Source: Acidobacteriota bacterium
Lineage (GTDB): Bacteria; Acidobacteriota; Vicinamibacteria; Vicinamibacterales; 2-12-FULL-66-21
Reading direction: 5' to 3'
NCBI GenBank assembly: GCA_016184105.1
Contig: JACPDI010000051.1
Location: 1-48,596, forward strand
DNA length: 48,596 nucleotides
The translations under genes and the position numbers were made by a program. The notes under the pieces are model-generated. The model had not been told where the DNA came from. It did not search any database and worked only from the letters and a program-made list of their open reading frames with translations. The stretch's first letter is position 1. Each line of letters starts with the position of its first letter. Below are positions 9,141 through 27,670 of this stretch, piece after piece.

Positions 9141-9156
9141 GAGAGCATCCACAGGC

Positions 9157-9205
9157 TTCAGGGTTCAGGATTCAGGGCTCAGGACCAAACCCTCAACCCT
9201 GAATC
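9157..9205. repeat. heptamer array (TTCAGGG family), partly inverted
   Basis: Units TTCAGGG, TTCAGGA, TTCAGGG, CTCAGGA are followed by CCAAACC, CTCAACC, CTGAATC, which are roughly the reverse complement of the first half. The array can therefore fold as a hairpin. It fills nearly all of the aceF-lpdA gap, inside the operon. Confidence 0.7.
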
Positions 9206-9215
9206 CCGGCAAGCG

Positions 9216-13497: not shown

Positions 13498-15396
13498 GTG
13501 ACACCCGCGTGGTTCCCGAAGTTGGATCGTCTCACGGCGCGTCTCGCGGCAGGCATCTCGATCCTGGTCGTGGTGCCGCTGGCCGGCGGCCTGTACCTTC
13601 TCTCCCGCTATCAATACGATCAAACCATCGCGGCCCGGCGCGCAGCCGCTGAGCTCGAGAACCGCATCCTCGAAACCTCGCTCCGCCATCAGATGCTGAC
13701 CCGGGACAGCCGCCTGATGACGCGGATCCTGGAGGAAGTCGCGCGGCATCCAGAGGTGCGCCGGGCGATGGTCATCGACCACAACGGCGTCGTCCGGCTG
13801 TCGAGCCGCGACATGGACGTGGGCGTGCGGTTCTCGCGCGATTCCCCGACCTGCCTCGTGTGCCACTCGAAGAGCCCCGGTGAGCGGGCCCGGTGGGTGC
13901 TCCTTCACGATGACGGCATCGACGTGCTCCGCTCGGTCCAGCCGATTGAGAACCGCCCCGAGTGCCACCGGTGTCACAATGCCGCGGCCAAGTTGAACGG
14001 CATCCTCATCATGGATGTGTCCCTCGCGCCCATCCAGGCCAAGGCGCGGAAAGAGCTGCAGCAGATCACGACGGCCACTATCGCCTTGACCTTCGTCCTG
14101 CTCGCGGGCGTCGGACTGCATCTCCGCCGGGTCGTGCTCTCCCGCCTTGGCAGGCTGAGCCGCGCGGCCCGCGCCGTCGCGGCGGGCGCGTTCGGCCAGC
14201 GGATCGATCCCGGGGGCAACGATGTGATCGCCTCGCTGGCGACCGACTTCAACCACATGGCGGATGCCGCCTCGTCGCTCATCGAAGACGTCAAGGGGCG
14301 CGAGCAGCAGCTCGCCGGCGTGCTCAACAGCCTCGATGACGGCCTGGTGGTGCTGGACCGCAACTTCCAGGTGGTGGCGGCGAACCGTTCCATCGCGAGC
14401 CGGCTGTGCGCGTACCCCGAGACGCTCCGCGGCCGCAACTGTCGCGACGCCGTGGGGCACGCGCTGCCGTGCCGCGAGGATCCGGAGTGCCCGACCGCGC
14501 GGTGCCTGTCCACGGGCAAGCTGCAGCGCGCGACCTACGGGCTCCCGTCGGGCTCGAACGGCAAGGGGCGCGTCCACGAGGTGTACGCCTCGCCGGTGTT
14601 CGACGACAACGGCTCGGTGACCCAGGTGGTGGAGGTGTGGCGCGACATCACCGATCGGGTGCGCGAAGAGGAGCGCCTGGCGGAGATCGAGCGGATGTCG
14701 TCGCTCGGCGTGCTCGCCTCCGGCCTGTCGCACGAAGTGAACACGCCGCTCGCCTCGACGCTCACGTGCGCGGAGGCGATTCTCGATCAGCTCGAGGGGG
14801 CGGAGCTGGCCGCGTGCGAGCCGGTCACGATGGACGCGATTCGCGAGAGCGCGGCCACGATTCGCGACCAGGTGCTGCGCTGCCGCCGGATCACCGACCG
14901 CTTCCTCCGTTTCGCGCGCGGCATCCCTCCGGCCATCGAACCGATCGACCTCCTGGAGGCCGTGCGCAACGTCATGGAGCTGGCGCGTCCGACCGCCCGT
15001 GAAGCGGGCGTCGAGCTGGTGCTCGACGGCGACGGCCCGATCCCGGTCGTCACCGCCAACACCGAAGTCGTCCAGCACGTCGTGCTCAACCTGCTCGTCA
15101 ACGCGATCCAGTCTTTCGAGGCGGGAGGCGGGCGCGTGACCGCGCGGTTCGCCGTCGATGCTGATGCCATTCGCCTGCAGATCCGAGACAATGGCTGCGG
15201 CATCCCGATGGATATCCAGAAGCACCTGTTCGAGCCGTTCCGCACGCAGAAGCCGCGCGGCACGGGCATGGGGCTGTTCCTGTCGCGCACCTTCATGCGC
15301 CGGTTCAACGGCGAGGTGCGCCTCGTGGACAGCGCCCCGGGCCGCGGGTCGTGCATCGAGGTGGTGTTTCCGCGATCGAGCCGCGAAGCCGAATGA
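13498..15396 (+). CDS. sensor histidine kinase with two-haem c-type periplasmic domain
   Basis: A 632-residue membrane kinase. The GTG at 13498 follows a GGGAGAG ribosome site; the longer frame upstream lacks any. Order: TM1 (about 17-36), periplasmic domain (37-188) carrying two CXXCH motifs, C119-H123 and C156-H160, TM2 (190-209), HAMP (210-262), PAS (270-385), HisKA with H412 in GLSHEVNTPLAS, and HATPase ending in the G-x-G box KPRGTGMGLFLS. CXXCH motifs outside the membrane bind c-type haem covalently, so this is probably a redox or gas sensor. The PAS domain has a cysteine group (C304, C315, C325, C331, C336) that could hold an Fe-S cluster or zinc. It is followed 3 bp later by its sigma-54 response regulator and then the cytochrome operon it most likely controls. 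Confidence 0.92.
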   Translation: MTPAWFPKLDRLTARLAAGISILVVVPLAGGLYLLSRYQYDQTIAARRAAAELENRILETSLRHQMLTRDSRLMTRILEEVARHPEVRRAMVIDHNGVVRLSSRDMDVGVRFSRDSPTCLVCHSKSPGERARWVLLHDDGIDVLRSVQPIENRPECHRCHNAAAKLNGILIMDVSLAPIQAKARKELQQITTATIALTFVLLAGVGLHLRRVVLSRLGRLSRAARAVAAGAFGQRIDPGGNDVIASLATDFNHMADAASSLIEDVKGREQQLAGVLNSLDDGLVVLDRNFQVVAANRSIASRLCAYPETLRGRNCRDAVGHALPCREDPECPTARCLSTGKLQRATYGLPSGSNGKGRVHEVYASPVFDDNGSVTQVVEVWRDITDRVREEERLAEIERMSSLGVLASGLSHEVNTPLASTLTCAEAILDQLEGAELAACEPVTMDAIRESAATIRDQVLRCRRITDRFLRFARGIPPAIEPIDLLEAVRNVMELARPTAREAGVELVLDGDGPIPVVTANTEVVQHVVLNLLVNAIQSFEAGGGRVTARFAVDADAIRLQIRDNGCGIPMDIQKHLFEPFRTQKPRGTGMGLFLSRTFMRRFNGEVRLVDSAPGRGSCIEVVFPRSSREAE

Positions 15397-15399
15397 GCC

Positions 15400-16833
15400 A
15401 TGCCCAACAAGAACACCCGCATTCTGCTGGTCGATGACGACACGACCTTCCGTCGCGTGATGGACACGGAGCTGACGCGCCGGGGCTACAAGGTCGTGGC
15501 GGTGGCCTCCGGAGCCGAGGCGCTCGAACAGGCGCCGCGCGCCAACGCGGACGTCACGCTGCTGGACCTGCGGCTGCCGGACATGGACGGCATCGAGGTG
15601 CTGAAGCGGCTGCAGGAGCGCAACACCCCGAGTGCGGTCGTCGTGCTGACGGCGCACGGCACGATCGACACGGCCATCCAGGCGATCCGCCTCGGCGCGC
15701 ACGATTATCTCGAGAAGCCCTGCCCGATTGCGAAGCTCGAGATGGCCATCCAGAAGACCTGCGAGCACGAGCGGCTGGTCAAGCGGCAGCGCGTCCTCGA
15801 AGATGGCTACGCGGCGCCGAACGTCGCGCCAGGACTGGTCGGGGCCAGCCCCGCGTTCGTGAAGCTGATGGACAACGTCGCCCGGATTGCGAGGGCCGGT
15901 GCAACCACCCTCGTACTGGGGGAGACCGGCGTCGGCAAGGAGGTGGTCGCGGCGCTGCTGCACGCGCAGAGCCCCCGCGGCGACGCACCGTTTGTCGTCG
16001 TCGACTGCGCATCGCTGCACGAAGAACTGCTGCAGAGCGAGATTTTCGGCCACGAGCGCGGCGCATTCACCGGCGCCAACCGCCTGAAGCACGGGCTGTT
16101 CGAAGTGGCCAGCGGCGGCACGATCTTCCTCGATGAAGTCGGCGACATCAGCCCCGACGTCCAGGCCAAGCTTCTGCGCGTCCTCGAAACCGGCCGCTTC
16201 CGCCGGCTGGGGGGGACCGACGAAATCTCGGTGGACGTTCGCATCATCGCCGCCACCAACCGCGACCTCCGGTCGGCGATCTCACGCGGCCATTTCCGGG
16301 AGGACCTGTTCTACCGCCTCGCCACGTTCGTCGTGGAGATCCCGCCGCTGCGCGAGCGCCCGGAGGATATCCGGCTGCTCGTCGAGCACTACGCCGCGCA
16401 GCTCAACCAGCGGTTCTCGCTCGACAAGCGGGTGGGGCCCGAGGCCATGGACGCCCTCCTGCGCCATTCCTGGCCCGGCAACGTCCGTGAACTGATTCAC
16501 GTGCTGGAGCAGGCCGTGGTGCTCAGCGACGACGACGAGATCGGGCGTGAGGATCTCCCGCCGCCAATTCGCGGCGTGAGGGCCGAGGCCGCGGCCCCGC
16601 CGGAAGAAGGAAGGGAAGAAGGAAGGGAAGAAGAAAACCTGACGCTGCGCGAAGTGCAGCGCCGGCACGTGTTCCGGGTGCTGGAGAAGGCGGCGGGCAA
16701 TCGCGCCCAGGCCGCTCGCCTGCTCGGCACGAGCGAACGCACGTTCTACCGGCTGCTCGAACGCTATCGCGGTGCATCGAATCCGCCGCCGCGAGCGAAA
16801 GTCCCTTCGTCCTCGCCCAAGCGAGAGTCCTGA
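15400..16833 (+). CDS. sigma-54-dependent response regulator, NtrC family
   Basis: A 477-residue activator. The receiver domain (1-120) has acidic D12-D13, phospho-acceptor D56 in LLDLRLPDMDG, and K in YLEKPCP. The AAA+ domain (about 145-380) has Walker A LGETGVGKE, the sigma-54 contact loop GAFTGA, Walker B GGTIFLDEVGDI and the R-finger region DLFYRLATFVVEIPPLRERPEDI. A Fis-type helix-turn-helix closes the protein (AAGNRAQAARLLGTSERTFYRLL). The linker between the last two is Glu-rich and encoded by a 12-bp tandem repeat. It partners the haem kinase directly upstream. The -24/-12 promoter 150 bp downstream is its likely target. Confidence 0.95.
   Translation: MPNKNTRILLVDDDTTFRRVMDTELTRRGYKVVAVASGAEALEQAPRANADVTLLDLRLPDMDGIEVLKRLQERNTPSAVVVLTAHGTIDTAIQAIRLGAHDYLEKPCPIAKLEMAIQKTCEHERLVKRQRVLEDGYAAPNVAPGLVGASPAFVKLMDNVARIARAGATTLVLGETGVGKEVVAALLHAQSPRGDAPFVVVDCASLHEELLQSEIFGHERGAFTGANRLKHGLFEVASGGTIFLDEVGDISPDVQAKLLRVLETGRFRRLGGTDEISVDVRIIAATNRDLRSAISRGHFREDLFYRLATFVVEIPPLRERPEDIRLLVEHYAAQLNQRFSLDKRVGPEAMDALLRHSWPGNVRELIHVLEQAVVLSDDDEIGREDLPPPIRGVRAEAAAPPEEGREEGREEENLTLREVQRRHVFRVLEKAAGNRAQAARLLGTSERTFYRLLERYRGASNPPPRAKVPSSSPKRES
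16603..16635 (+). repeat. 12-bp tandem repeat in the regulator linker
   Basis: GAAGAAGGAAGG occurs twice in full and once in part (GAAGAAGAA), encoding EEGREEGREEE between the AAA+ and DNA-binding domains. The unit length is a multiple of three, so copy changes would only lengthen or shorten the flexible linker. Confidence 0.8.
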
Positions 16834-16878
16834 CAGTTCTGACAGGCTCGCGCCCCCTGCACCTGCCAGAACTAACAG
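16830..16878. promoter_or_regulatory. paired 16-bp sites, candidate enhancer (UAS) of the sigma-54 regulator
   Basis: Site 1, CTGACAGTTCTGACAG (16830-16845), and site 2, CTGCCAGAACTAACAG (16863-16878), each consist of two CTGNCAG-type half-sites 2 bp apart. Site 2 is close to the reverse complement of site 1 (13 of 16 bases). Their centres are 33 bp apart, about three helical turns, and they lie 100-150 bp before the -24/-12 promoter. This is the usual layout of NtrC-type enhancer sites. Site 1 overlaps the stop codon of the regulator gene. A rival reading is a dispersed short repeat or weak hairpin. Confidence 0.5.
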
Positions 16879-16975
16879 GCTGCGCGCGCGTCTCCGCCTC
16901 CAGGCAAACCCCGCCACTCGCCTCTCGCGCACGTTTTCGGCCTGATTCAACGGATCGGCACACCGGCCGGGCTTG

Positions 16976-16991
16976 CGGAACGGAGGTTGCT
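16976..16991 (+). promoter_or_regulatory. sigma-54 (-24/-12) promoter of the cytochrome operon
   Basis: CGGAACGGAGGTTGCT fits the sigma-54 consensus TGGCAC-N5-TTGCW: GG at 16977-16978, GC at 16989-16990, exactly 10 bases between, and a perfect TTGCT -12 element. Transcription would begin near 17002, just before the AAGGAGG ribosome site at 17007-17013 and the ATG at 17021. The gene upstream encodes a sigma-54 activator. Confidence 0.62.
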
Positions 16992-17020
16992 CATGCGCAC
17001 GTGCAAAAGGAGGCAGAGGG

Positions 17021-17365
17021 ATGGAAGGAATGGTGGCTCTCGTCCTGGTCCTCACACTTCTGTTCGGCGGCATGATGCTGGCCCTCGTCATGGGCTACCG
17101 CGACATCGAGGAGCGTCGCGGCCTTGACGCGGCGCGGGCGGCCGGCGCGTCGCGCGCGGCAAACGCCGCGATGGTCCCCGGGTTCTTCACCGGCGCGAAG
17201 AGCGGGGCCTACGCCGTCGGTCCGGCCATTTCGTTTGACGAGATGCTGCTCACGCGTCTCGAGCAGCACGTGCAGGCCGAGCACGAGCGAGTGGCGGAGT
17301 TCGTCCACTTCCCGTCGATGGATCGGCTGTATCGCGCGTCGGATTCGCAGCTTCACGTTCACTGA
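17021..17365 (+). CDS. small single-span membrane protein, first gene of the cytochrome operon
   Basis: A 114-residue protein with one N-terminal membrane helix (MVALVLVLTLLFGGMMLALVMG) and a soluble C-terminal part rich in charged helix (FDEMLLTRLEQHVQAEHERV). No family recognised. The ATG at 17021 has a strong ribosome site AAGGAGG 7 nt upstream; a frame extended to 16973 would run through the sigma-54 promoter. As the first operon gene it may be an assembly or anchoring protein for the redox complex, but nothing in its sequence proves this. Confidence 0.72.
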   Translation: MEGMVALVLVLTLLFGGMMLALVMGYRDIEERRGLDAARAAGASRAANAAMVPGFFTGAKSGAYAVGPAISFDEMLLTRLEQHVQAEHERVAEFVHFPSMDRLYRASDSQLHVH

Positions 17366-17376
17366 TCGGAGGGCAC

Positions 17377-17880
17377 GTGACGCTCACCGCGCAGATGCAC
17401 GAAGTGCTCAAGAACGCCGAGCTGTTCCGGGGATTCACCCTGGACGGCATCTGGCGGCTGACGGCGATCGGCCGGTCGCGCGCGCTGGCCGCCGGAGATT
17501 ATCTCTTTCTCCTCGGCGACCCGGCGGAGTGCATTTACGTCGTGGCGAACGGGGCGATGGAGCTGTGCCTCCCCATGACGGTTGCCGGTGCGGTCAGGGA
17601 CGTGCGCGTGGAATCGGCCGGAGCAGGCAAGGCGCTCGGCTGGTCCGCGCTCGTGCGCCCCTACCGCTTCACACTGTCCGCGCGCGCGGCTGAAGCGGCC
17701 GTGGTCATCGGCTTTCCGCGCGCAGACCTTCAGGTGCTGTTCGACGCAGCGCCCGACCTCGGAAAGTGCTTTCTTGGAAATCTGTCGGAGCTGGTCGGCG
17801 TCCGTCTGCTCACGTTCCAGACCTTGTGGGTCCGCGAGCTGCAGCATGCGGTGCTGAACGAAGCGAACCAGCGCAGGTGA
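17377..17880 (+). CDS. cyclic-nucleotide-binding-fold protein without DNA-binding domain
   Basis: A 167-residue protein that reads as a single Crp-type cNMP-binding beta-barrel: LKNAELFRGFTLDGIWRLTA, then ALAAGDYLFLLGDPAECIYVVANGAMELCL, GKALGWSAL and VVIGFPRADLQVLFDAAPDL. The normal phosphate-binding GE-R-x-x-L cassette is replaced by GKALGWSALVRPYRF, so cAMP binding is doubtful. There is no helix-turn-helix. GTG start at 17377 after GGAGGG. It lies inside the redox operon, so it may sense a ligand or regulate complex activity in the cytoplasm. Start, fold and lack of HTH are seen; the role is inference. Confidence 0.75.
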   Translation: MTLTAQMHEVLKNAELFRGFTLDGIWRLTAIGRSRALAAGDYLFLLGDPAECIYVVANGAMELCLPMTVAGAVRDVRVESAGAGKALGWSALVRPYRFTLSARAAEAAVVIGFPRADLQVLFDAAPDLGKCFLGNLSELVGVRLLTFQTLWVRELQHAVLNEANQRR

Positions 17881-17896
17881 CACAGGAGCCGACGCC

Positions 17897-18433
17897 GTGT
17901 CCATAGACGAAGGGCTCAATCCGAAACGGCGCCTGGTCCTCGGCGTCCTCGCGATCGCGGTGGCGACCGCCGGCTTCAACGCGGGCCGGTTCGTCCTGCG
18001 GCCGACCACCCGGATCGCGCAGCCGATCCAGTTCAATCACCAGAAGCACGTCAAGGACGTCGGCCTCGAGTGCTCGACGTGCCACGAGCACTACACCACG
18101 AGCGAGCACTCCGGCCTGCCGTCGCTGGCGGTGTGCCAGGGCTGCCACTCGGAGCCGCTCACCAAGTCCGCCGAAGAACAGAAGCTGCTGAAGCTGGCGG
18201 CGAGCGAGCGCCAGCCCGCGTTCCGCAAGCTGTTTCGCATGGCCGACCACGTGCGCTACTCGCACCGCCGGCACGTCGCGATCGGCGGCATCGCGTGCGA
18301 CACGTGCCACGGCGCCATCGCGGACACGACGACTCCTCCGCCCTCCCCGCTGGTGCGGATCACCATGGACACGTGCACGGGGTGCCACGCCGAGCGTGGC
18401 GTCAAGACCGATTGCACGCACTGTCATCGCTGA
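17897..18433 (+). CDS. pentahaem c-type cytochrome (QrcA/ActA-like)
   Basis: A 178-residue protein with an N-terminal membrane anchor (about 11-34) and five CXXCH motifs: CSTCH (59-63), CQGCH (80-84), CDTCH, CTGCH and CTHCH near the C-terminus. Distal histidines in FNHQKH and YSHRRHV are typical of cytochrome c7/c3-like domains. It precedes molybdopterin-type, Fe-S and NrfD-type genes in the same order as qrcABCD, where the cytochrome subunit exchanges electrons with periplasmic carriers. It is probably periplasmic, tethered to the inner membrane. Start GTG 17897, 16 bp after the cNMP-fold gene. Confidence 0.9.
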   Translation: MSIDEGLNPKRRLVLGVLAIAVATAGFNAGRFVLRPTTRIAQPIQFNHQKHVKDVGLECSTCHEHYTTSEHSGLPSLAVCQGCHSEPLTKSAEEQKLLKLAASERQPAFRKLFRMADHVRYSHRRHVAIGGIACDTCHGAIADTTTPPPSPLVRITMDTCTGCHAERGVKTDCTHCHR

Positions 18434-18446
18434 GGGAGGAACACCG

Positions 18447-20774
18447 ATGTCGATGACGCGACGAGGTTTTCTGTTCGGTACGGCGGGCGCGGGTGTCGGG
18501 CTCGGGCTCGGGGCATTGTCCCACGAGTTCCCTCTCCCATCGCCCCAGTTCGGGCCCGAGTGGCAACCTGGCGCTGAAACCTTCGTGGCGTCCACCTGCG
18601 TGCTGTGCCCCGCCCACTGCGGGATCAAGGCGAGGCTGGTGGACGGCGCGCTGACCCGGATCGACGGCAACCCGTTGCACCCCGTGAGCCAGGGGGGGCT
18701 GTGCCCCAAGGGGCGCGCGGGCATCCAGCTCGCCTATCACCCGGCGCGCCTGAAGGGACCGGTCGAACGCGTCGGGCCGCCCGGATCCGATCGATTCGTG
18801 CCGATCTCGTGGGATGCCGCGCTCGATCGCGTTGCCGCGGCGCTGCGCGCTGCCCAGGCGGCACACCAGGCAGGCTCGGTGGAATGGCTCGTCGGAGACG
18901 CACCGGGCGTCGTCGGTGAGCTGATCGCGGCGTTCTGCCATGCGTACGGCACCGATCGGATCACCGTGGACGATTACCGCGACGGCTCGGCCGACGTGAT
19001 GCGCCTCTGCCAGGGAATCGCGGCGCCGCCGGCGTTCGATCTGTTGTCGTCGGATCTCGTCGTCTCCTTCGGCGCGGCGCTGTCGGAGGCGTGGGCGGCG
19101 CTGCCGCTGGCCGCGAGAGCGCGCGAGGCCGCGGGGCGGCGCTGGGTGCAGGTTGACGTCCGTCTCTCGCGCACGGCGGTCAGCGCGGACGAATGGATCG
19201 CGGTTCGGCCCGGCACGTACGGCACGCTCGCGCTGGGGCTCGCCTACCTGCTCGCCAAGGAAGGACTCTACGACGCCGAATTCGTCTCGAGCCGGGTCTC
19301 CGGCTGGGAAGACTGGAGCGACCAGGGAGGGACGCACACGGGATTCCGATCGCTCGTCTTGAGGCACGGGGCGCCGGACAACGTCTCGCGCATCACCGGG
19401 GTGCCGGTGGCGCGACTCATCCAGCTCGCCAAAGCCTTCGGCACCGCCCAGCGGCCGGTGGCGATCTGGGACCACGCGGTCAGCTGGCGTCGCGGGGGCC
19501 TGTCGGACGCGCTCGCGATCCACGCGCTCAACGTGCTTCGCGGCGGCCTCAATCGCCCTGGAGGAGTGCTGGTCCAGGCGCCGGTCGCGCTGCCCGGCCC
19601 GCTTGACGGCTTCGACCGCGGCGCCGACCTGTCGCGCCGGCCACTCACCTCCGCCGCGTGGCCAGGCGAGCCCGGCGGCGACGCAGCGCGTGCGGCCCAG
19701 GTGCTGTTCCTCTACCAGTCGAACCCGGTCGCTTCGGCAGCGCGCGCAGACGAGGCCCGGCGCGCGCTCGAGCGCGTGCCGATGGTCGTGTCGTTCTCGC
19801 CGTTTCTCGACGAGAGCGCGCGCTACGCGCACCTCGTGCTCCCCGATCACACGTATCTCGAGCGCTGGCAGGATGCCCCGGCGCCGGCTGCGGTGGCGTT
19901 CCCCGTATGGGGAGTCGTGCGCCCGGTGATCGCGCCGCTGCAGGACACGCGCGCCAGCGGCGACGTCATTCTTGGCCTGGCCTCCCGCCTGGGCGGCAGT
20001 GTCAAGGCGCGTCTTCCCTGGGCATCGCTCGAGGAGATCGTGCGCCGGCGCGGCGTCGCGCTCGCGGGGGCGCAGCGTGGAAGCGCCTTCGTCGAGCCGT
20101 TCCGCCAGGGCGAGTTGCGCGAGCTGGAGAGCCGCGGCTGGTGGCTGCCCCACGGCGTGCCGGCCGAGGAGTACTGGCAGACGATCCTCGACTCCGGCGG
20201 CTGGTTCGATCCGATCTACGACTACCAGGATCGCAGCGCCGTCACGCAACACGCCGACGGCCGGGTGTGGATCTTCCCGCCCGAAGCAAGACGACGTCTT
20301 GCGAAGTCCGGCGAGCCCCTGACGGAGGGGTTCCTGCCGGCAACGGCCGAACCTTCCGAGATGCCGGCCGGGGACAAGACGTTCCCGCTACGGCTGGTTC
20401 CCTTCCGCGTCCTCACGCTCGCCTCGGGCGGAACGCCGCTGATGCCCTGGCTGCTCGAGCATATCGGGGTCCTGGCCGGCAACGCGTGGGAGACCTGGGC
20501 CGAGCTGAATCCGGAAACCGCCCGCGAGCTGGGGCTGCATTCCGGCCAGCGTGTGCGGGTCGAATCGGAACGCGGCGCGTTCGAGGCGACGGTGCGCGTC
20601 TTTGCCGGCGCGCAGCCCGGCGTCGTGAACGTGCCGTACGGACTCCACACGCGCGTGCGCGGATGGGGAGAGGCGCCGGCTGCCAACCCGCTCGTTGCGG
20701 TGGGTCCGGCGCAGGACATGGTCGCCGGTCTTCCCGACTGGTACTCGACACGCGTCCGGCTCACGCCGGCTTGA
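18447..20774 (+). CDS. molybdopterin-oxidoreductase-family catalytic-type subunit (QrcB/ActB-like)
   Basis: A 775-residue protein with a twin-arginine signal (MTRRGFLFGTAG, so exported folded) and an N-terminal 4Fe-4S site C-x2-C-x3-C-x26-C in CVLCPAHCG... to LCPKGRAG. The body carries the molybdopterin-binding folds (PISWDAALDRVAAAL, SSDLVVSFGAALSEAW, LFLYQSNPVASAA) and the C-terminal dinucleotide-binding domain (ETARELGLHSGQRVRVESE). A Cys in MRLCQGIAAPP lies near where a metal ligand would be, but the related QrcB subunits are reported to lack molybdenum, so catalysis is uncertain. ATG at 18447 after GGGAGGA. It is followed 8 bp later by the Fe-S subunit. Confidence 0.9.
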   Translation: MSMTRRGFLFGTAGAGVGLGLGALSHEFPLPSPQFGPEWQPGAETFVASTCVLCPAHCGIKARLVDGALTRIDGNPLHPVSQGGLCPKGRAGIQLAYHPARLKGPVERVGPPGSDRFVPISWDAALDRVAAALRAAQAAHQAGSVEWLVGDAPGVVGELIAAFCHAYGTDRITVDDYRDGSADVMRLCQGIAAPPAFDLLSSDLVVSFGAALSEAWAALPLAARAREAAGRRWVQVDVRLSRTAVSADEWIAVRPGTYGTLALGLAYLLAKEGLYDAEFVSSRVSGWEDWSDQGGTHTGFRSLVLRHGAPDNVSRITGVPVARLIQLAKAFGTAQRPVAIWDHAVSWRRGGLSDALAIHALNVLRGGLNRPGGVLVQAPVALPGPLDGFDRGADLSRRPLTSAAWPGEPGGDAARAAQVLFLYQSNPVASAARADEARRALERVPMVVSFSPFLDESARYAHLVLPDHTYLERWQDAPAPAAVAFPVWGVVRPVIAPLQDTRASGDVILGLASRLGGSVKARLPWASLEEIVRRRGVALAGAQRGSAFVEPFRQGELRELESRGWWLPHGVPAEEYWQTILDSGGWFDPIYDYQDRSAVTQHADGRVWIFPPEARRRLAKSGEPLTEGFLPATAEPSEMPAGDKTFPLRLVPFRVLTLASGGTPLMPWLLEHIGVLAGNAWETWAELNPETARELGLHSGQRVRVESERGAFEATVRVFAGAQPGVVNVPYGLHTRVRGWGEAPAANPLVAVGPAQDMVAGLPDWYSTRVRLTPA

Positions 20775-20782
20775 GGACAGCC

Positions 20783-21466
20783 ATGCCGCGATGGGGAATG
20801 GTGATCGACCTCGACAAGTGCAACGGCTGCCAGGCGTGCGAAGTGGCGTGCCGATCGGAAAACAACATCGCCGTCGGCGGGCCGCAGGCGGCCGGCGAGA
20901 GCCGCACCATTTCGTGGATGCGCGTGCAGACGGAGGTCGAGGGCGAGTGGCCGAACCTGCGGGCCCGGTTCGTGCCGCAGCCGTGCATGCACTGCGACCG
21001 CCCGCCGTGCACGCTGGTCTGCCCCGTGCAGGCGACCTCGCGCGATTCGGAAGGCATCATCAGTCAAATCTACGCGCGGTGCATCGGCTGCCGGTACTGC
21101 GCGAACGCCTGCCCGTACACGGTGAAGTACTTCAACTGGCGGCGGCCATCCTATCCGGGCTCCACCGTCGCGGGGCTGAACCCTGACGTGTCGCTGCGCC
21201 CGGTCGGCGTCATCGAGAAGTGCACGTTCTGCCACCACCGCCTGCAGAAGGCGCGTGACGTCGCGCGGGCCGAGAAACGCCCGTTGCGGGAGGCGGATTA
21301 CGTGCCGGCCTGCAGTGAGAGCTGCCCCACCGGCGCGATCGTCTTCGGGGATCTCGACGATCCGGATCACCGGGTGGCGCAGCTGGCGCGCGATCCGCGC
21401 GCGTTTCGTCTCCACGAAGACCTCGGGACTCAGCCCAAGGTCTATTACCTGGCGGAGCAGGACTGA
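20783..21466 (+). CDS. four-cluster ferredoxin-like subunit (PsrB/QrcC type)
   Basis: A 227-residue Fe-S protein with sixteen cysteines set for four 4Fe-4S clusters: CNGCQACEVAC, CMHCDRPPCTLVCP, CIGCRYCANACP, and CTFCHH plus CSESCP. This is the standard electron wire of PsrB/NrfC/DmsB subunits that links a catalytic-type subunit with an NrfD membrane subunit. No signal peptide of its own is seen, so it is probably co-exported with the Tat-targeted partner. ATG at 20783. The next gene starts 1 bp after its stop. Confidence 0.95.
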   Translation: MPRWGMVIDLDKCNGCQACEVACRSENNIAVGGPQAAGESRTISWMRVQTEVEGEWPNLRARFVPQPCMHCDRPPCTLVCPVQATSRDSEGIISQIYARCIGCRYCANACPYTVKYFNWRRPSYPGSTVAGLNPDVSLRPVGVIEKCTFCHHRLQKARDVARAEKRPLREADYVPACSESCPTGAIVFGDLDDPDHRVAQLARDPRAFRLHEDLGTQPKVYYLAEQD

Positions 21467-21467
21467 C

Positions 21468-22820
21468 GTGACTGATCTCGAGATCGTTTCCCGTCTGCCG
21501 CAGGACGAACGCGTGTTGCTCATGCCGCTCGTGCGCACGACGAAGACCTTCTGGCGATGGGCGGCCGTGATGGCGGCCATCTCGCTCTGGGGGCTCTTCG
21601 CCTACGCGTACCAGTTGAGGAACGGGCTGGGCGCAACCGGGTTGAACACGCCGGAGTACTGGGGCATCTACATCATCTGCTTCGTGTTCTTCATCGGCAT
21701 CTCGCACGCCGGCACGCTCATCTCCGCGATTCTTCGCGTCGCCAACGCGGAATGGCGCCGTTCGATCACCCGATCCGCCGAATTCATCACGGTGCTGGTG
21801 ATCGGCTTCGGCGCGATCCAGCCGGTGCTGGACCTGGGAAGGCCCGACCGCGTGCTGAACGTGATGCTGCACTCGCAGCCGTTCTCGCCGTTGCTCTGGG
21901 ACGTGATGAGCATCGGCCTCTACTTCACGGCGAGCAGCGTCTACCTCTACGTGCCGATGATCCCCGACCTCGCACGCATCCGCGACCTGGGCCTGCGCCC
22001 GCGGCTGCTCTACTGGTTCCTGGCGATCGGGTACCACGACACGCCGGCGGCCCGGCACACGCTCGAGCGCCTGATTTCCGTCCTCGCGGTGGCCGTGATC
22101 CCGATCGCCGTGTCGGTGCACACGGTGATCGGCTGGATCTTCGCCCTCACGCTCAGACCCATGTGGCACAGCGCGATCTTCGGGCCCTACTTCGTCATCG
22201 GGGCCATCTTCTCCGGCATCGCCGCCCTGATCATCGCGATGGCGATTCTCAGGCGCGTCTACCGGCTGGAGGCCTACTTCAAGGACATCCACTTCAATCA
22301 CATGGGGCTCCTGCTGCTCGTGATGTCGATCCTGTGGTTCTACTTCACGTTTGCCGAGCACCTGACGGTCTGGTACGGCGGCGAGGAGGCGGAGCTGGCC
22401 ACCCTGTACTCGAAGCTGTACGGCGCGTTCTGGTTTCCGTTCTGGCTGATGTTCGCGACCTGCTTCGTCATCCCGTTCGGGCTGATGGCGCGCGCGAAGA
22501 CCCGCAACGTCCCGGGAACCGTCATCGCGTCGGTGGCCGTGGTGATCGGCATGTGGCTGGAGCGCTTCAACATCGTCGTGCCCACTTCCCTGCACCCGCG
22601 CGGAGAGGTCGCCATCGCGCACTACTGGCCGTCGTGGGTCGAGCTGTCGATCATGGCCGGGACGTTTGCCGGGTTCGTGCTCGTCTACATGATCGCCACG
22701 AAGTTCTTCCCCATCGTGTCGATCTGGGAGATCAAGGAAGGCCGCGAGAAGTCCATCGAGGAAGTCACCGAACGCGTCTCCGAATATCTGCCGGACGATC
22801 TGGAGGCGGTGGCGTTATGA
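21468..22820 (+). CDS. NrfD/PsrC-family quinone-interacting membrane subunit (QrcD-like)
   Basis: A 450-residue polytopic inner-membrane protein with about ten helices, for example WWAAVMAAISLWGLFAYAY-like TM1, GIYIICFVFFIGISHAGTLI, AEFITVLVIGFGAIQPVLDL, ERLISVLAVAVIPIAVSVHT, FGPYFVIGAIFSGIAALIIA and LLLLVMSILWFYFTFAEHLT. The GISHAGTLISA helix is a hallmark of the family. NrfD-type subunits exchange electrons (and often protons) with menaquinone. GTG at 21468 is used, right after the Fe-S gene stop. It overlaps the next gene by ATGA. Confidence 0.93.
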   Translation: MTDLEIVSRLPQDERVLLMPLVRTTKTFWRWAAVMAAISLWGLFAYAYQLRNGLGATGLNTPEYWGIYIICFVFFIGISHAGTLISAILRVANAEWRRSITRSAEFITVLVIGFGAIQPVLDLGRPDRVLNVMLHSQPFSPLLWDVMSIGLYFTASSVYLYVPMIPDLARIRDLGLRPRLLYWFLAIGYHDTPAARHTLERLISVLAVAVIPIAVSVHTVIGWIFALTLRPMWHSAIFGPYFVIGAIFSGIAALIIAMAILRRVYRLEAYFKDIHFNHMGLLLLVMSILWFYFTFAEHLTVWYGGEEAELATLYSKLYGAFWFPFWLMFATCFVIPFGLMARAKTRNVPGTVIASVAVVIGMWLERFNIVVPTSLHPRGEVAIAHYWPSWVELSIMAGTFAGFVLVYMIATKFFPIVSIWEIKEGREKSIEEVTERVSEYLPDDLEAVAL

Positions 22821-24025
22821 ACAGGCGAGTGGCACTCATCGTCCTGGCGACGGCGGTGTGGGGCGCCGCGATGGCGGCGAGCGCGCGAGTGGCCGACGAC
22901 CCGATGAGCGACGGGAATCCGTTCAAGGGTCGCGACATCTTCGTGCGGAAGGGGTGTGTCAGTTGTCATTCGATCTGGGGCAACGGCGGATCGCTCGGGC
23001 CTGACATCACCGTCGCGGTCGCCGGCAAGACGTGGGACGAGCTGGTCGGCGATTTCTGGAATCACACGCCGCGGATGATCGATGAAGTCAGCGCGCGCGG
23101 GTATCCGTGGCCCTCGCTCGACGCGCAGGAGATGGCCGACGTCCTGAGCTATCTCTACTACCTGCGGCTGTTCGACGAGCCGGGAAACGCCGTCCGCGGC
23201 GCCGACACGTTCGCGCGGCTGGAGTGCGGCAGCTGCCACACGCTCGGCGGGCGCGGCGGGAACACCGCGGGTCCGCTGGACCGGTTTGGCGCGTATCCCT
23301 CTCCCACCCCGCTCGCCCAGGCCATGTGGAATGCCGGACCGCGGATGCAGCAGGAGCAGCTGCGCCGCGGGAGAGACATTCCGCAGTTCACCGGCCACGA
23401 GATGGCCGATCTCCAGGCCTACATTCGCTCGGAAGGGCGTCGCGCGGGACGCGAGGTGGACCTGCAGCCGTTGCCGAGCCCGGGCCGCGGCGCCGAGGTG
23501 TACCGGCGCAAGCAATGCGGCACGTGTCACGACAGCCGCGGCGGGCGCGCCCCGGACATCACGCGGGCGGCCCTGTCGAAGACCGCGTCGGAGATCACGG
23601 GACTGCTCTGGAACCACAGCTACGCGATGGGCGCGATGATGCGCGCGCGCGGCGTGCCGTTCCCCCACTTCAGCGGCAGCGACCTCTCGGATCTGGTCGC
23701 GTACCTGTACTTCCGCGGCTACCTCGGCGACGAAGGGGTCGCCACGAGGGGCGCGGCGGTGTTCAAGAACAAGGGGTGCGCCGGCTGTCACGGCGCCGGG
23801 ATCGCCGGAGCGCCTGACCTCGCCTCAGCGCTGAAGCGCGCGGACCGCCCCGGCCTTGCCGCCGCGATGTGGAATCACGCCCCGCAGATGCATCGCCTGA
23901 TGGCGGAGAAAGCGCCGTTCTGGCCCAAGTTCGAGCCAGGCGACATGCGTGATCTGGCCGCGTACCTCCGCCGCCTTGCAACCTCGCCGGAGAACGCGGC
24001 CCGAAGTGGAAAGTCGAAGTCGTAG
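22817..24025 (+). CDS. four-domain (tetrahaem) periplasmic cytochrome c
   Basis: A 402-residue exported protein (signal peptide within the first ~22 residues) built from four consecutive monohaem cytochrome c domains, each with one CXXCH: CVSCH, CGSCH, CGTCH and CAGCH. Each is followed by a pattern W-N-H/G-x-P-x-M (FWNHTPRM, MWNAGPRM, LWNHSYAM, MWNHAPQM), where the methionine is a candidate axial ligand; the repeat shows internal duplication. It starts at the ATGA overlapping the NrfD gene, so translation is coupled. It probably carries electrons across the periplasm between the membrane complex and the decahaem conduit. Confidence 0.9.
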   Translation: MNRRVALIVLATAVWGAAMAASARVADDPMSDGNPFKGRDIFVRKGCVSCHSIWGNGGSLGPDITVAVAGKTWDELVGDFWNHTPRMIDEVSARGYPWPSLDAQEMADVLSYLYYLRLFDEPGNAVRGADTFARLECGSCHTLGGRGGNTAGPLDRFGAYPSPTPLAQAMWNAGPRMQQEQLRRGRDIPQFTGHEMADLQAYIRSEGRRAGREVDLQPLPSPGRGAEVYRRKQCGTCHDSRGGRAPDITRAALSKTASEITGLLWNHSYAMGAMMRARGVPFPHFSGSDLSDLVAYLYFRGYLGDEGVATRGAAVFKNKGCAGCHGAGIAGAPDLASALKRADRPGLAAAMWNHAPQMHRLMAEKAPFWPKFEPGDMRDLAAYLRRLATSPENAARSGKSKS

Positions 24026-24047
24026 AGCACGTGTGAAGGAGGCCGAT

Positions 24048-24995
24048 ATGCGCCGTGCCATTCCCGGAGTGTTCCTGAGTGCGGTCGTGATCGCGTGGCT
24101 GGCCGCCTCGGGGTGGGTCCTCACGGCGTCCGCCACGCCCGCCCAGCAGGCGGCAGCGCCCGAAACGGCAGGAGGAACCTACGCCGGAACCGAGGTGTGC
24201 CTCACCTGCCATACCGAAAAAGCGGACAGCCTGAAGGGCACGCCGCACGGGCGCGCGTCGAATCCGCGCAGCCCGCTGGCCGGACAAGGATGCGAAGCGT
24301 GCCACGGCCCCGGCAAGGCCCACGCCGAGGCCGGAGACGCGACGCTCATCCGGCGGTTCGGCAACGGCGGCCTGGCGCCACGCGCCTCCGCCGAAGTCTG
24401 CACGGCCTGCCACGTCCGCGGCACCCATGCCCTCTGGACCGGGAGCCAGCACGAGCAGCGCAACGTCGGGTGCGTCACGTGCCACAGCGTGCACAGCCCC
24501 CGCGGTGACAAGCAGATCAAGGCGGCCACGCAGCCGGAGCTGTGCGGCGGCTGTCACCGGCAGATGGCGAACAAGTTTTATCGCTTCAATCACATGCCCG
24601 TGCGCGAGGGCAAGATGGTCTGCTCGTCGTGCCACAACCCGCACGGCTCGAGCAACGTCAAGCTGCTCAAGGCGGGGACGACGGTCGACCAGGCGTGCAC
24701 GAGCTGTCACGCGGAAAAGCGCGGCCCGTATCTCTGGGAGCACGCGCCGGTGACCAATTCCTGCGTGACGTGTCACGACCCGCACGGATCGAACAACGAG
24801 CGGCTGCTCGTGGCCAAGGTGCCCTTCCTGTGCCAGAGGTGCCACGTCACGGCCCGGCACCCGCCGACGGTCTACGAGGGCTTCGCCTTGAGGAACACCA
24901 CAAGCGCCAACCGGCTGATCGGCTCCGGCTGCGTCGTCTGCCACGTGCAAATCCACGGGTCGAACGCGCCGTCCGGGAAGTACTTCCATCGCTAG
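24048..24995 (+). CDS. decahaem c-type cytochrome, DmsE/MtrA family
   Basis: A 315-residue exported cytochrome with ten CXXCH motifs: CLTCH, CEACH, CTACH, CVTCH, CGGCH, CSSCH, CTSCH, CVTCH, CQRCH and CVVCH. The spacing and the repeated NPHGS/DPHGSNN and CHxxxH elements match the DmsE/MtrA/PioA family. These proteins fill the lumen of an MtrB-type barrel and carry electrons through the outer membrane. The N-terminus has a signal peptide (cleavage near ATPAQQ). A GAAGGAGG ribosome site supports ATG 24048. The barrel gene follows after 16 bp. Confidence 0.94.
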   Translation: MRRAIPGVFLSAVVIAWLAASGWVLTASATPAQQAAAPETAGGTYAGTEVCLTCHTEKADSLKGTPHGRASNPRSPLAGQGCEACHGPGKAHAEAGDATLIRRFGNGGLAPRASAEVCTACHVRGTHALWTGSQHEQRNVGCVTCHSVHSPRGDKQIKAATQPELCGGCHRQMANKFYRFNHMPVREGKMVCSSCHNPHGSSNVKLLKAGTTVDQACTSCHAEKRGPYLWEHAPVTNSCVTCHDPHGSNNERLLVAKVPFLCQRCHVTARHPPTVYEGFALRNTTSANRLIGSGCVVCHVQIHGSNAPSGKYFHR

Positions 24996-25011
24996 TGCGA
25001 GGAGGATTGCG

Positions 25012-27312
25012 ATGCGTAACACACTGACGATGGCCATTGCCGGATCCCTGCTGGCGTCCGTGGCGTCGGCGCAGCAGCCGCCGCCGCCGCCGGCGTTCAT
25101 CCCCACCGCAGGCTGGGCGGGCTCGATCGACTTCGGCGCGCGGCTGAACGCGGTGACGGGCGACCAGGCGCGCTTCGAACGGTTCGGCGACGTGCGCGAC
25201 GGCGCGTCCACCCGGATCACCCTCGGCAAGGAGACCGCGCAGTATGCCTTCAGCGCGGAGATTTCCAACATCGGGTACAGAGACCAGCGATACGAGGCGA
25301 GCTACGATCGCCAGGGGCGGGTGAAATTCACGTTCCTGTGGGACTCCACCCCGTTCAACTACGCCTACAACTCCTCGACGCCGTGGGTCGAGCAGTCTCC
25401 CGGCGTGTTCACGCTCGATCGAACGGCGCGGCTGCTGGTGCAGAACCGGGCGCCGGGGGTGGTTGGCGTCGCGGCCAGTGCGGCGCAGCTCGCGACCCCG
25501 TCGATTTTCCGGGACCTCGCCTCGCCGCTCGACATCCAGTCGCGGCGCGACACGGCGAGCTTCGCCGGGACGTTGATGGCCACCCGCGAGCTGGCCATCA
25601 ACTTCTCGTTCGCGTCGACCAACAGGACCGGGCACGAGCCGAAAGGGGCCTCGTTCGGGTTCAACGTGGCGAGCCAGGTGGCGGCCCCGATCGACACCCG
25701 CACCAACGACCTCTCGGCCGCCGCCGAGTGGCTTGGCCGGCAGGCGATGTTCCGCGTCGCGTGGGACGGCTCCTGGTTCAGGAACGGCATCCATGAACTG
25801 CTGGTCGACAACCCGGTGCGAGCCGATGACACCAGTCCTATCGACTACAGCGGGTATGCGAGCGGGCGAGGGGCGGCGCAGAGCCGCTTCGCGGCGGCTC
25901 CAGACAACAGCCTCAATACGATCAGCGCGACGGGACTCTACAAGCTGCCGGGACACAGCAACGTGAACGGCACGGTCTCGTTCGCGACCATGCGGCAGAA
26001 CGACACGCTGATCCCGTGGACGAGCAGCAAGGTGATCGACAGCCCGGCGGTGTTCGCGCTGTTCCCGGGGCTCGCGAGCCTGCCGCGGAGCACGGCGGAC
26101 GCCAAGGTGGAAGCGGTCAACGCCCTGCTCACCTACACCACGAGGCCGAACCGGTTCTTCGGCTTCACGACGCGCTACCGGTACAACGACCATCGGAACC
26201 TGACGCCCATGTTCGACGGCACCGACTACGTCCGCATGGACGCGGTCCCGGAGGAAACCGGCGGTCCGACCCGCCCGTTCAACGTCAGGCAGAGCACGTT
26301 CGACGTGAACGCCAGCTTCAACGTGGCGCCGCGCACGGACCTCCGGCTCGGCTACACGCTGGACGACGCCAAGCGGACGGGGCGGGAACTCAGCGACAGC
26401 ACGGACTACACGTTCCGCGCCACGCTCGACACGGTGGGCGGGCCGTACGTCATGGTGCGCCTGATTTACGAGAACTCGCATCGGGTCGGCACCGGCCTCT
26501 CGCTGGAGACGCTCGAGGAGGCCGGTTTCCAGCCGGGCCTGCGGACCTACGACGTCGCCGATCGCGACCGGGACCGTGGCTGGCTGGTGGTCACGCTCAC
26601 CCCGGCGTCCATCTTCGACGTCAGCTTCTCGCTCGCGGCCGCCCGGGATCGATACCGCGGCGACGGCCACCAGTTCGGGCTGCTGGACAACGACAACACC
26701 GTCTTCAACGTCACGGCCAACCTCCGGCCGGTCGAGAAGGTGCTGCTCGGCGCCAACTACGGCCGCGATTCGTACGACGCGCTGATGAAGGCGCGCAACG
26801 CGAGCCCGCTGGGCACCGACTACGGGAGCTGGATCGATCCGAACCGCGACTGGCTGCTGGACCAGGACGAGAAGGTCGACAACGTGAGCGTGTACCTCGA
26901 CCTGCTCCAGGCGATCGCGCGCACCGACATCCGCCTGAGTTACGACTACAGCGACTCGAACAACGCGTACATCCACAGCGGCCCGCGCATCCAGGAGCTG
27001 ATGACGTCCACGGCGTTCAGGCCGGGGGCGCCCAGGCCGTGCACGGCGCCGCTCACGTCCTGCTTCGAGCCGCTGCCGACCATTACCAACACGTGGCAGC
27101 GCCTGAAGGCGGACGTGACCTACATGTTCAGCCGCAGCGCGGGCCTCGGGTTCGGCTACTGGTTCGAGAAGTTCGACGTCAGCGATTACGCGACCGTCGA
27201 TTTGCAACCCGGCACACCCCGGATCGACTACCTCGGCGTCATCGGCACCGGATACGGGAACCGGCCCTACAAGGCGAACACGGGATTCTTCCGGATCCTC
27301 TATCTGTTCTGA
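25012..27312 (+). CDS. MtrB/PioB-family outer-membrane beta-barrel
   Basis: A 766-residue outer-membrane porin with a signal peptide (MRNTLTMAIAGSLLASVASA), many amphipathic beta strands with alternating aromatic residues, and a C-terminal aromatic strand ending in FFRILYLF. Its place directly after the decahaem gene and its length fit the decahaem-associated MtrB/PioB family, which sheathes the cytochrome wire. The N-terminal CXXC motif known from Shewanella-type MtrB is absent; the only close cysteine pair is late, in RPCTAPLTSC, probably in a surface loop. PioB-like barrels also work without an MtrC partner, and none is encoded here. Confidence 0.88.
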   Translation: MRNTLTMAIAGSLLASVASAQQPPPPPAFIPTAGWAGSIDFGARLNAVTGDQARFERFGDVRDGASTRITLGKETAQYAFSAEISNIGYRDQRYEASYDRQGRVKFTFLWDSTPFNYAYNSSTPWVEQSPGVFTLDRTARLLVQNRAPGVVGVAASAAQLATPSIFRDLASPLDIQSRRDTASFAGTLMATRELAINFSFASTNRTGHEPKGASFGFNVASQVAAPIDTRTNDLSAAAEWLGRQAMFRVAWDGSWFRNGIHELLVDNPVRADDTSPIDYSGYASGRGAAQSRFAAAPDNSLNTISATGLYKLPGHSNVNGTVSFATMRQNDTLIPWTSSKVIDSPAVFALFPGLASLPRSTADAKVEAVNALLTYTTRPNRFFGFTTRYRYNDHRNLTPMFDGTDYVRMDAVPEETGGPTRPFNVRQSTFDVNASFNVAPRTDLRLGYTLDDAKRTGRELSDSTDYTFRATLDTVGGPYVMVRLIYENSHRVGTGLSLETLEEAGFQPGLRTYDVADRDRDRGWLVVTLTPASIFDVSFSLAAARDRYRGDGHQFGLLDNDNTVFNVTANLRPVEKVLLGANYGRDSYDALMKARNASPLGTDYGSWIDPNRDWLLDQDEKVDNVSVYLDLLQAIARTDIRLSYDYSDSNNAYIHSGPRIQELMTSTAFRPGAPRPCTAPLTSCFEPLPTITNTWQRLKADVTYMFSRSAGLGFGYWFEKFDVSDYATVDLQPGTPRIDYLGVIGTGYGNRPYKANTGFFRILYLF

Positions 27313-27337
27313 TGACGCCGTCTGGAGGACACTCGCT

Positions 27338-27670
27338 ATGCGCCCGAACGTGTTGATGCTCGTCGTCGCGGGACTGCTGTGGCCCGCCGCCGCGTGGTCG
27401 CAGGATGCTCTGGTTCAAAAGGGACAGCAGCTCTACGCCGCCCAGAAGTGCACGATGTGTCATTCGGTGGCGGGCAAGGGAAACCCGAAGGGTTCTCTCG
27501 ATCACGTCGGCTCGAAGTGGAAGGCCGAGGAGCTGCGCGAGTGGATCGTGAACTGGAAGGAGATGGCGGCCAAGCACCAGGTGACCCGAAAGCCCCCGAT
27601 GCTTGACTACTCGAAGCTTCCAAAAGCGGACGTGGACGCGCTGATCGCGTACCTCCAGACGCTCAAGTGA
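27338..27670 (+). CDS. small monohaem cytochrome c
   Basis: A 110-residue exported protein: signal peptide (MRPNVLMLVVAGLLWPAAAWS), then one cytochrome c domain with CTMCH, a GNPKGSLDHVG loop, and a methionine in KPPMLDY that could be the distal ligand. It is the last gene of the operon, 25 bp after the barrel. It is probably a mobile periplasmic carrier serving the conduit. Its last 8 bp overlap the end of the convergent membrane-protein gene, and no terminator lies between. Confidence 0.9.
   Translation: MRPNVLMLVVAGLLWPAAAWSQDALVQKGQQLYAAQKCTMCHSVAGKGNPKGSLDHVGSKWKAEELREWIVNWKEMAAKHQVTRKPPMLDYSKLPKADVDALIAYLQTLK

Follow-up and report, generated by a model that had tools for sequence, protein, structure and literature searches.

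A two-haem-motif sensor kinase cassette beside genes for an NrfD-type complex and an outer-membrane electron conduit in an acidobacterium

The locus

The window, a 48,596-nucleotide stretch of DNA from an Acidobacteriota bacterium of the Vicinamibacterales (contig JACPDI010000051.1, here C51, of an assembly of 4.24 Mb in 69 contigs that is 96% complete), carries between positions 13498 and 27670 a sensor histidine kinase with two CXXCH haem motifs, an NtrC-type regulator and ten more genes, all on the + strand (Table 1). The ten-gene run that follows the regulator encodes a small protein (S), a cyclic-nucleotide-binding-like protein (CNB), a pentahaem cytochrome, a molybdopterin-oxidoreductase-like (Mo-like) subunit, an iron-sulphur (Fe-S) subunit, an NrfD subunit, a four-haem cytochrome (cyt4), a decahaem cytochrome, an MtrB-type barrel and a monohaem cytochrome. 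These genes are packed as one operon, with gaps of at most 25 bp, behind paired operators and a -24/-12 site, and in related genomes the regulatory part and the electron-transfer part each occur without the other. The flanking genes (10599-13274 and 27663-28598) lie on the strand opposite to the operon.

A preliminary description of this DNA had listed most of these parts, and profiles and motif counts agree with its ten genes, including the haem numbers of the pentahaem, four-haem and decahaem cytochromes and the MtrB gene. The regulator, placed 3 bp after the kinase stop codon as described, has the complete NtrC-type domain set, with Response_reg (PF00072), Sigma54_activat (PF00158) and HTH_8 (PF02954) all over cut-off; in the linker preceding its DNA-binding domain, an EEGREEGREE repeat is encoded at 16605-16640. 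The paired upstream sites were recovered as two dyads of 18 bp rather than 16 bp. The qrcABCD gene order that had been assigned to the first four genes is present, but it starts at the third gene, after S and CNB, which had been left undescribed.

Genes at the S position in 16 other loci have in common, as judged by eye, a C-terminal pattern like LE.HvR.E....E.F...Ps...L. The motif [GA]WS[AT] was present in 18 of 18 aligned CNB homologues, at the position where canonical cyclic-nucleotide-binding domains have FGE, and CNB is perhaps not a cAMP binder. The window gave no Rfam match.

Table 1. Features of the locus, with positions in the window
Feature	Position	Strand	Status
Sensor histidine kinase: transmembrane segment (TM), periplasmic Cache with two CXXCH, TM, HAMP, PAS, HisKA, HATPase	13498..15396	+	
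NtrC-type sigma-54 response regulator	15400..16833	+	
Operator 1, upstream activator dyad CCTGACAGTTCTGACAGG, overlaps regulator stop codon	16829..16846	.	putative
Operator 2 CCTGCCAGAACTAACAGG, 33 bp after operator 1	16862..16879	.	putative
-24/-12 sigma-54-type promoter CGGAACGGAGGTTGCT	16976..16991	+	predicted
S, small one-TM protein without Pfam/NCBIfam family	17021..17365	+	
CNB, cyclic-nucleotide-binding-like (PF00027), GWSAL in phosphate-cassette region	17377..17880	+	
Pentahaem cytochrome, QrcA-like, 5 CXXCH	17897..18433	+	
Molybdopterin-oxidoreductase-like subunit, QrcB-like, twin-arginine start, CX2CX3CX27C kept	18447..20774	+	
Fe-S subunit, QrcC-like, motifs for four clusters	20783..21466	+	
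NrfD-family membrane subunit	21468..22820	+	
Cytochrome c with four CXXCH (cyt4)	22817..24025	+	
Decahaem cytochrome, 10 CXXCH, DmsE family (TIGR03508 above cut-off)	24048..24995	+	
MtrB/PioB outer-membrane barrel (PF11854 295.6 bits)	25012..27312	+	
Monohaem cytochrome c	27338..27670	+	

Paired operators and the promoter

The dyads have the conserved form CCTGAC-N5/6-GTCAGG and occur in pairs upstream of the target operon. In the window, the pair was reached by none of 300 shuffles of its own intergenic region. The motif was first spotted by eye in 12 loci, and 43 loci, our choice of non-duplicate loci with CNB, were then tested with 300 shuffles each; some of these are near relatives, so that the tests are not independent. 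The pair gave p ≤ 0.05 in 38 of the 43, comprising 10 of the 12 loci seen previously and 28 of the 31 others, and failed in L069, L141, L163, L169 and L193. With three loci added later (L135 and L146, which passed, and L166, which failed at p 0.067), it was found in 40 of 46 related loci, or in 30 of the 34 that had not been used for spotting the motif. The dyad spacer is mostly 5, but 6 in the window, L127, L124, L126 and L147. For a control, 28 regions were taken from in front of decahaem genes not accompanied by the kinase-regulator-S-CNB set, and none contained a pair (0/28); a 29th, upstream of the pentahaem gene of genome G043, gave p 0.013 with one dyad, which is perhaps a remnant. Across the organism's own 4.24-Mb genome, the sole operator site with zero mismatches is the first window dyad, and the second is one of two single-mismatch sites. 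A genome-wide regulon sought with CCTGNCAGNNCTGNCAGG was rejected, as sites with up to two mismatches (33 places, against 39 for the control) were at chance level beyond the window pair.

The predicted promoter, which had been proposed as a -24/-12 site, matches 10 of 12 consensus positions and scores best of the GG-N10-GC sites in the window (506 on the + strand, 577 on the - strand), although three window sites score 10 when GG and GC are not fixed. When compared with shuffles of the intergenic region in which it lies, the score is marginal (p 0.043). Three related loci (L069, L141 and L176) have CGGCATGAGAATTCCA or a close form in place of the -24/-12 consensus. A sigma-70-type start of the operon, which the preliminary description had named as evidence against its own reading, was not found in a simple scan of 16700-27800 (0 sites; 0.7 in shuffles), and nothing above shuffles was seen in a search for terminators within the operon. 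The genome has one rpoN (sigma-54) match over cut-off. Because the paired operators are conserved, absent from the 28 control regions and accompanied by rpoN, the haem-motif kinase and the sigma-54 activator probably control the operon; this regulatory wiring is well supported by comparison of sequences.

A Cache sensor with two haem motifs

The two CXXCH motifs of the kinase, at residues 119 and 156, lie between hydrophobic segments 11-38 and 187-214, in agreement with the periplasmic location first described. A kinase open reading frame (ORF) with both motifs, 37 residues apart, was found in the window and in 25 of 25 related loci examined, a count that means one such ORF per locus, since the scripts took only ORFs with two CXXCH. 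In an alignment of 41 sensors (the window and 40 loci that we chose from 79, the other 39 being duplicates, short, distant or in some cases ordinary), the second CXXCH is invariant and the first is at least 90% conserved.

A profile of 14 sensors matched, at the second CXXCH, the structures of GSU0582 (3b47, E 3.1e-6) and GSU0935 (3b42, E 2.1e-4), proteins that form swapped dimers (PMC3460858, cited, like the other papers below, from excerpts). The model of residues 36-195 (mean pLDDT 86.7) has a Cache fold, with 3b42 as the second match of Foldseek. When structures were ordered by Z, WalK-type Cache sensors led (Z 13.5, rmsd 2.8, 133 aligned); 3b42 and 3b47 were not among the best 50 rows by Z and appeared in Foldseek with a large rmsd. 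PF11845 (DUF3365/Tll0287) gave no match at E 0.001, and PF21563 reached 25.6 bits against a cut-off of 27. The trait of the sCache_heme group, a CXXCH in an extracytoplasmic Cache domain, is present by sequence and model, haem attachment being putative, and the sequence places the sensor with the GSU0582/GSU0935 type of Cache domain. A two-haem sensor is not new in itself, because two-motif haem sensor proteins, GSU0599 among them, are already named in PMC3831638 and PMC8396549.

What such a sensor perceives bears on the purpose of the operon. A 2026 preprint (PMC12889525) defines haem Cache domains and reports that one signalling member binds nitric oxide (NO); a text search of it turned up no mention of two-haem forms. 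The window sensor, which matches these domains in fold and CXXCH, belongs to the same superfamily, so the kinase could be an NO sensor and the operon an answer to NO or denitrification intermediates, not to extracellular acceptors. This is rather unlikely: a single signalling member was tested in that work, whereas window-type sensors have a second CXXCH; the closest structures by sequence, GSU0582 and GSU0935, are described as working over distinct redox-potential ranges (PMC8396549); and the best matches of the operon's genes included no family that handles NO.

The cassette in related genomes

The class was surveyed in 193 genomes, 22 of which have the kinase (E ≤ 1e-75), at 26 places in all. 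All 26 surroundings were mapped with the window proteins, and 12, including the window, also had their genes called. In 19 of the 26 places, the kinase has CNB at a distance of no more than about 5 kb on the same stretch; CNB is about 8 kb off in G001:C86 (L146) and on a second contig in G106, where kinase (L125) and target (L147) stand on two contigs with regulator fragments that fit and are likely linked. Five kinase places are without CNB; four of these (L105, L132, L134, L137) end near the kinase and one (L139) does not. Contig ends shorten the downstream reach in at least 8 of the 26 (L105, L125, L126, L132, L134, L137, L069, L141).

The commonest partners are DsrO/DsrP-type Fe-S and NrfD genes, joined by a tetrahaem gene where genes were called. 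Genes for an SPFH protein, a heptahaem cytochrome, and Mo-like, Fe-S and NrfD subunits are present at L069, L141 and L147, and L127 has a complex of the window type that ends at cyt4. At L124, nothing after CNB matched the electron-transfer proteins of the window, and the genes called there hold no CXXCH. The kinase, regulator, S and CNB therefore appear, from these gene neighbourhoods, to form a portable cassette that mostly stands beside other NrfD-type complexes.

Within this reach, MtrB was seen beside the kinase in one of the 26 places, the window itself. The expectation that the haem kinase would always accompany MtrB did not survive this count, and the two as a conserved pair were rejected at the level of the locus. 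The single dedicated unit proposed earlier keeps its regulatory link through the paired operators and loses the fixed pairing of kinase and MtrB. Separation of kinase and regulator from cytochrome genes, proposed as grounds for refutation, was seen in half: the pair usually stands beside electron-transfer genes, but of other types. Both genes were present somewhere in 11 of the 193 genomes (3.9 expected, hypergeometric 1.9e-4, uncorrected for kinship and completeness).

Beyond the class, the cassette was found in Polarisedimenticola, Planctomycetota, Myxococcota and Rokubacteria, and, without CNB, in Zixibacteria. MtrB was detected at E ≤ 1e-5 in three of eight genomes searched for it (G197, G199, G089); among these three, only the rokubacterial G197 carries the gene inside its cassette operon, which has no decahaem ORF. 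That operon (L176, 4647-9619) also contains a 220-aa response-regulator-like gene between CNB and MtrB. The kinase tree comprised the window and 31 of 34 listed loci (L196, L207 and L169 gave no kinase ORF) and placed the window in a starred clade of nine, whose other members represent three partner states and one locus cut by a contig end. Because the rokubacterial kinase falls in a different clade, the MtrB links of the window and of Rokubacteria look independent in origin.

The genome itself has a paralogue of the system. At L044 (contig C27, 1319-12559), a two-haem kinase and regulator stand between S/CNB-tetrahaem-DsrO-DsrP-like genes, of which the DsrP profile is over cut-off, and NiFe hydrogenase genes just past the regulators. 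Directly after the paralogous regulator, 8408-9400 encodes a 330-aa protein that is 39% like part of the regulator.

Such a distribution invites the view that the output of the cassette is mainly the NrfD-type complex, the decahaem, MtrB and monohaem genes being passengers of a recent rearrangement and little under its control. Cassette and complex stop after cyt4 in G070 and Polarisedimenticola, in line with this view, as is the single MtrB neighbour among the class places. It is nevertheless improbable: the genes are open and unbroken, with gaps of 7-25 bp, three more genomes (G043, G064, G078) join complex and conduit, and G070 does have a decahaem-like gene, cut by the contig end and divergent from the kinase. 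In Polarisedimenticola-type genomes, a decahaem-like gene lies elsewhere, adjoining a gene for a 698-aa protein. At L233 (5872-11859), one such set consists of an eight-CXXCH decahaem-like gene, the 698-aa protein, which has no family match and might at a guess be a barrel, and a 996-aa protein with nine CXXCH; the set is possibly an unnamed conduit.

The electron-transfer unit as a module of its own

MtrB (E ≤ 1e-150) was found at 37 places in 34 of the 193 class genomes. Of these places, 26 were mapped, with a reach of up to 15-16 kb upstream but just about 2 kb downstream, and in some cases on a short contig; within that reach, the 25 besides the window contained no CNB and no kinase match above 114 bits. 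The joining of quinone-active NrfD-type genes to a decahaem/MtrB conduit, already pointed out for the window, is found elsewhere too: pentahaem, Mo-like, Fe-S, NrfD and cyt4 genes recur with decahaem and MtrB genes, in the absence of the cassette, in G043, G064 and G078. The G078 unit, which runs decahaem, MtrB, two monohaem, pentahaem, Mo-like, Fe-S, NrfD, four-haem cytochrome, directly follows the genes for a 228-aa regulator and for a haem-less kinase with HAMP, HisKA and HATPase domains. In G064, a unit of this type with other small genes in its middle follows a similar haem-less pair after about 6 kb, an interval that holds a four-haem cytochrome and two genes on the opposite strand. G043 keeps the window order from pentahaem to monohaem, with no kinase, regulator, S or CNB; its MtrB has only 30% identity, and the unit is preceded by a NapC-like five-haem gene. 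Because these three genomes carry the unit without the cassette, two of them with a haem-less two-component pair, the combination of quinol complex and conduit appears to recur under an exchangeable controller.

The Mo-like subunit of the window keeps the cluster cysteines 51, 54, 58 and 86, the fourth of which is lost in the homologues of L069, L141, L147 and L154. In an alignment with ArrA, it has Asp at the position of the Mo-binding cysteine, which in ArrA is the Mo ligand, so that the subunit may hold a cofactor. The genome contains four further decahaem/MtrB-type pairs (C65:44450, C7:102683, C22:93458, C22:129982), beside which no CNB was seen.

Proposed mechanism

The reading we favour, with moderate confidence, is that a portable cassette has been placed before an NrfD-complex and DmsE/MtrB unit, combining haem-based redox sensing, a sigma-54 switch and an outward path for electrons. 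Through its periplasmic haems, the kinase would sense how reduced or oxidised the pool of periplasmic cytochromes is, NO being the main alternative signal, and the phosphorylated regulator would bind the two dyads and loop onto the sigma-54 polymerase. Electrons would then be exchanged, through the NrfD and Fe-S subunits, between quinol and the cytochromes with five and four haems, which would pass them on to decahaem/MtrB and across the outer membrane. Electrons most likely flow outward, in respiration on an extracellular acceptor; the signal and this direction are what we infer.

Several observations weigh against this reading. The -24/-12 score alone reaches p ≤ 0.05 in just 16 of the 43 tested loci. 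Because the cassette mostly adjoins other complexes, the signal that it reads may have nothing to do with extracellular acceptors. Gene calling gave no CXXCH gene over the 14.6 kb that follow cyt4 in Polarisedimenticola G193, nor over the 4 kb from cyt4 to the contig end in G070. The operon is without an MtrC/OmcA-type extracellular cytochrome, and the 96% complete assembly gave two weak matches to this type, none over the TIGR03507 cut-off. Three haem-copper oxidases are present in the genome, and electrons could go elsewhere or inward.

Inward flow through the same wiring would make the conduit a route of electron uptake, as in PioAB or MtoAB with Fe(II), and the Qrc- or alternative complex III (ACIII)-like complex would feed quinone or, via cytochromes, a terminal oxidase. 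The presence of a DmsE/MtrB-type pair, but of no surface cytochrome of the MtrC type over cut-off, agrees with uptake, as do the oxidases. From the literature, Qrc itself reduces menaquinone (PMC13059093), PioAB homologues have been reported in Acidobacteria and Rokubacteria (PMC10654088) and, for some syntrophs, reverse operation of CbcBA has been predicted (PMC10553843). DmsE- and MtrA-type conduits also export, however, and direction is not told by sequence. Uptake is a possibility to which we assign a lower probability than to export, though a somewhat higher one than to NO sensing.

The comparison can be put more broadly, at about even odds: a plug-in redox switch (two-haem kinase, sigma-54 regulator, private operator, S and CNB) may be shared across several phyla and re-plugged between NrfD-type complexes, here onto an outer-membrane conduit, with S and CNB as accessory subunits that link complex and switch.

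To our knowledge, most work on the regulation of electron exchange with minerals or electrodes has been done in Shewanella and Geobacter. The locus brings together, in an acidobacterium, a defined sensor, regulator, operator and target, with sites suited to footprinting, and the conserved operator suggests what the same switch controls in the other uncultured genomes compared. It also draws attention to two families of small proteins encoded at the start of NrfD-complex operons; for one of them, S, neither Pfam nor NCBIfam has a model. In searches of openly licensed papers, by titles and the starts of abstracts, no description of the kinase-regulator-S-CNB cassette, its operator or the MtrB junction turned up. 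The locus is a combination of known modules with a cassette and operator not found described, at a rare junction.

Comparison with known systems

On the regulatory side, the sensor resembles the sCache_heme proteins (DUF3365/Tll0287, GSU0582, GSU0935) in its Cache fold and in the segment of the second CXXCH, which aligns with 3b47 and 3b42, and differs from them by an extra CXXCH 37 residues earlier. In Geobacter, the RpoN regulator BccR (GSU0598) controls cbcBA and lies near GSU0599. The latter is a two-component protein with two c-type haem motifs (PMC3831638, PMC8396549), as in the window kinase. CbcBA is an oxidoreductase of the inner membrane that is expressed on Fe(III) at low potential (PMC10553843). 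As far as we know, and unlike the window complex, CbcBA is neither an NrfD complex nor joined to MtrAB.

The complex itself resembles QrcABCD in gene order (pentahaem, Mo-like, Fe-S, NrfD, 17897-22820), and Qrc subunits are the best NCBIfam match for the first three of these proteins. All four are below the NCBIfam cut-offs (QrcA 81.7/180, QrcB 288.5/440, QrcC 301.8/400, QrcD 39.3/570), and because of this 'qrc' denotes resemblance, not membership. The Mo-like subunit also keeps its four cluster cysteines, whereas QrcB is reported to be without a redox cofactor (PMC13059093). ACIII and ACIII-like complexes share with the window a cytochrome, Mo-like, Fe-S and NrfD subunits and an extra c-type cytochrome, and a four-haem ActE-like protein has been reported in an ACIII-like cluster of MBNT15 (PMC9386147). 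In contrast to the fused ActB, the Mo-like and Fe-S subunits of the window are separate genes, and the match to subunit B is weak (8k9e_B E 6.6e-12, 6lod_B 1.8e-9).

On the side of the outer membrane, the window is like MtrAB, PioAB, MtoAB and DmsEF, as a DmsE-family decahaem cytochrome (TIGR03508 264.3 vs 192.2) adjoins an MtrB/PioB barrel (PF11854 295.6 vs 23; MtrB TIGR03509 235.1, just under the cut-off of 240.05). In the Acidobacteriia group of one survey, no quinone enzyme of the inner membrane was seen in the vicinity of mtrCAB (PMC8805035, as excerpted). In the window, the inner-membrane partner of the conduit is an NrfD complex, and not CymA/NapC.

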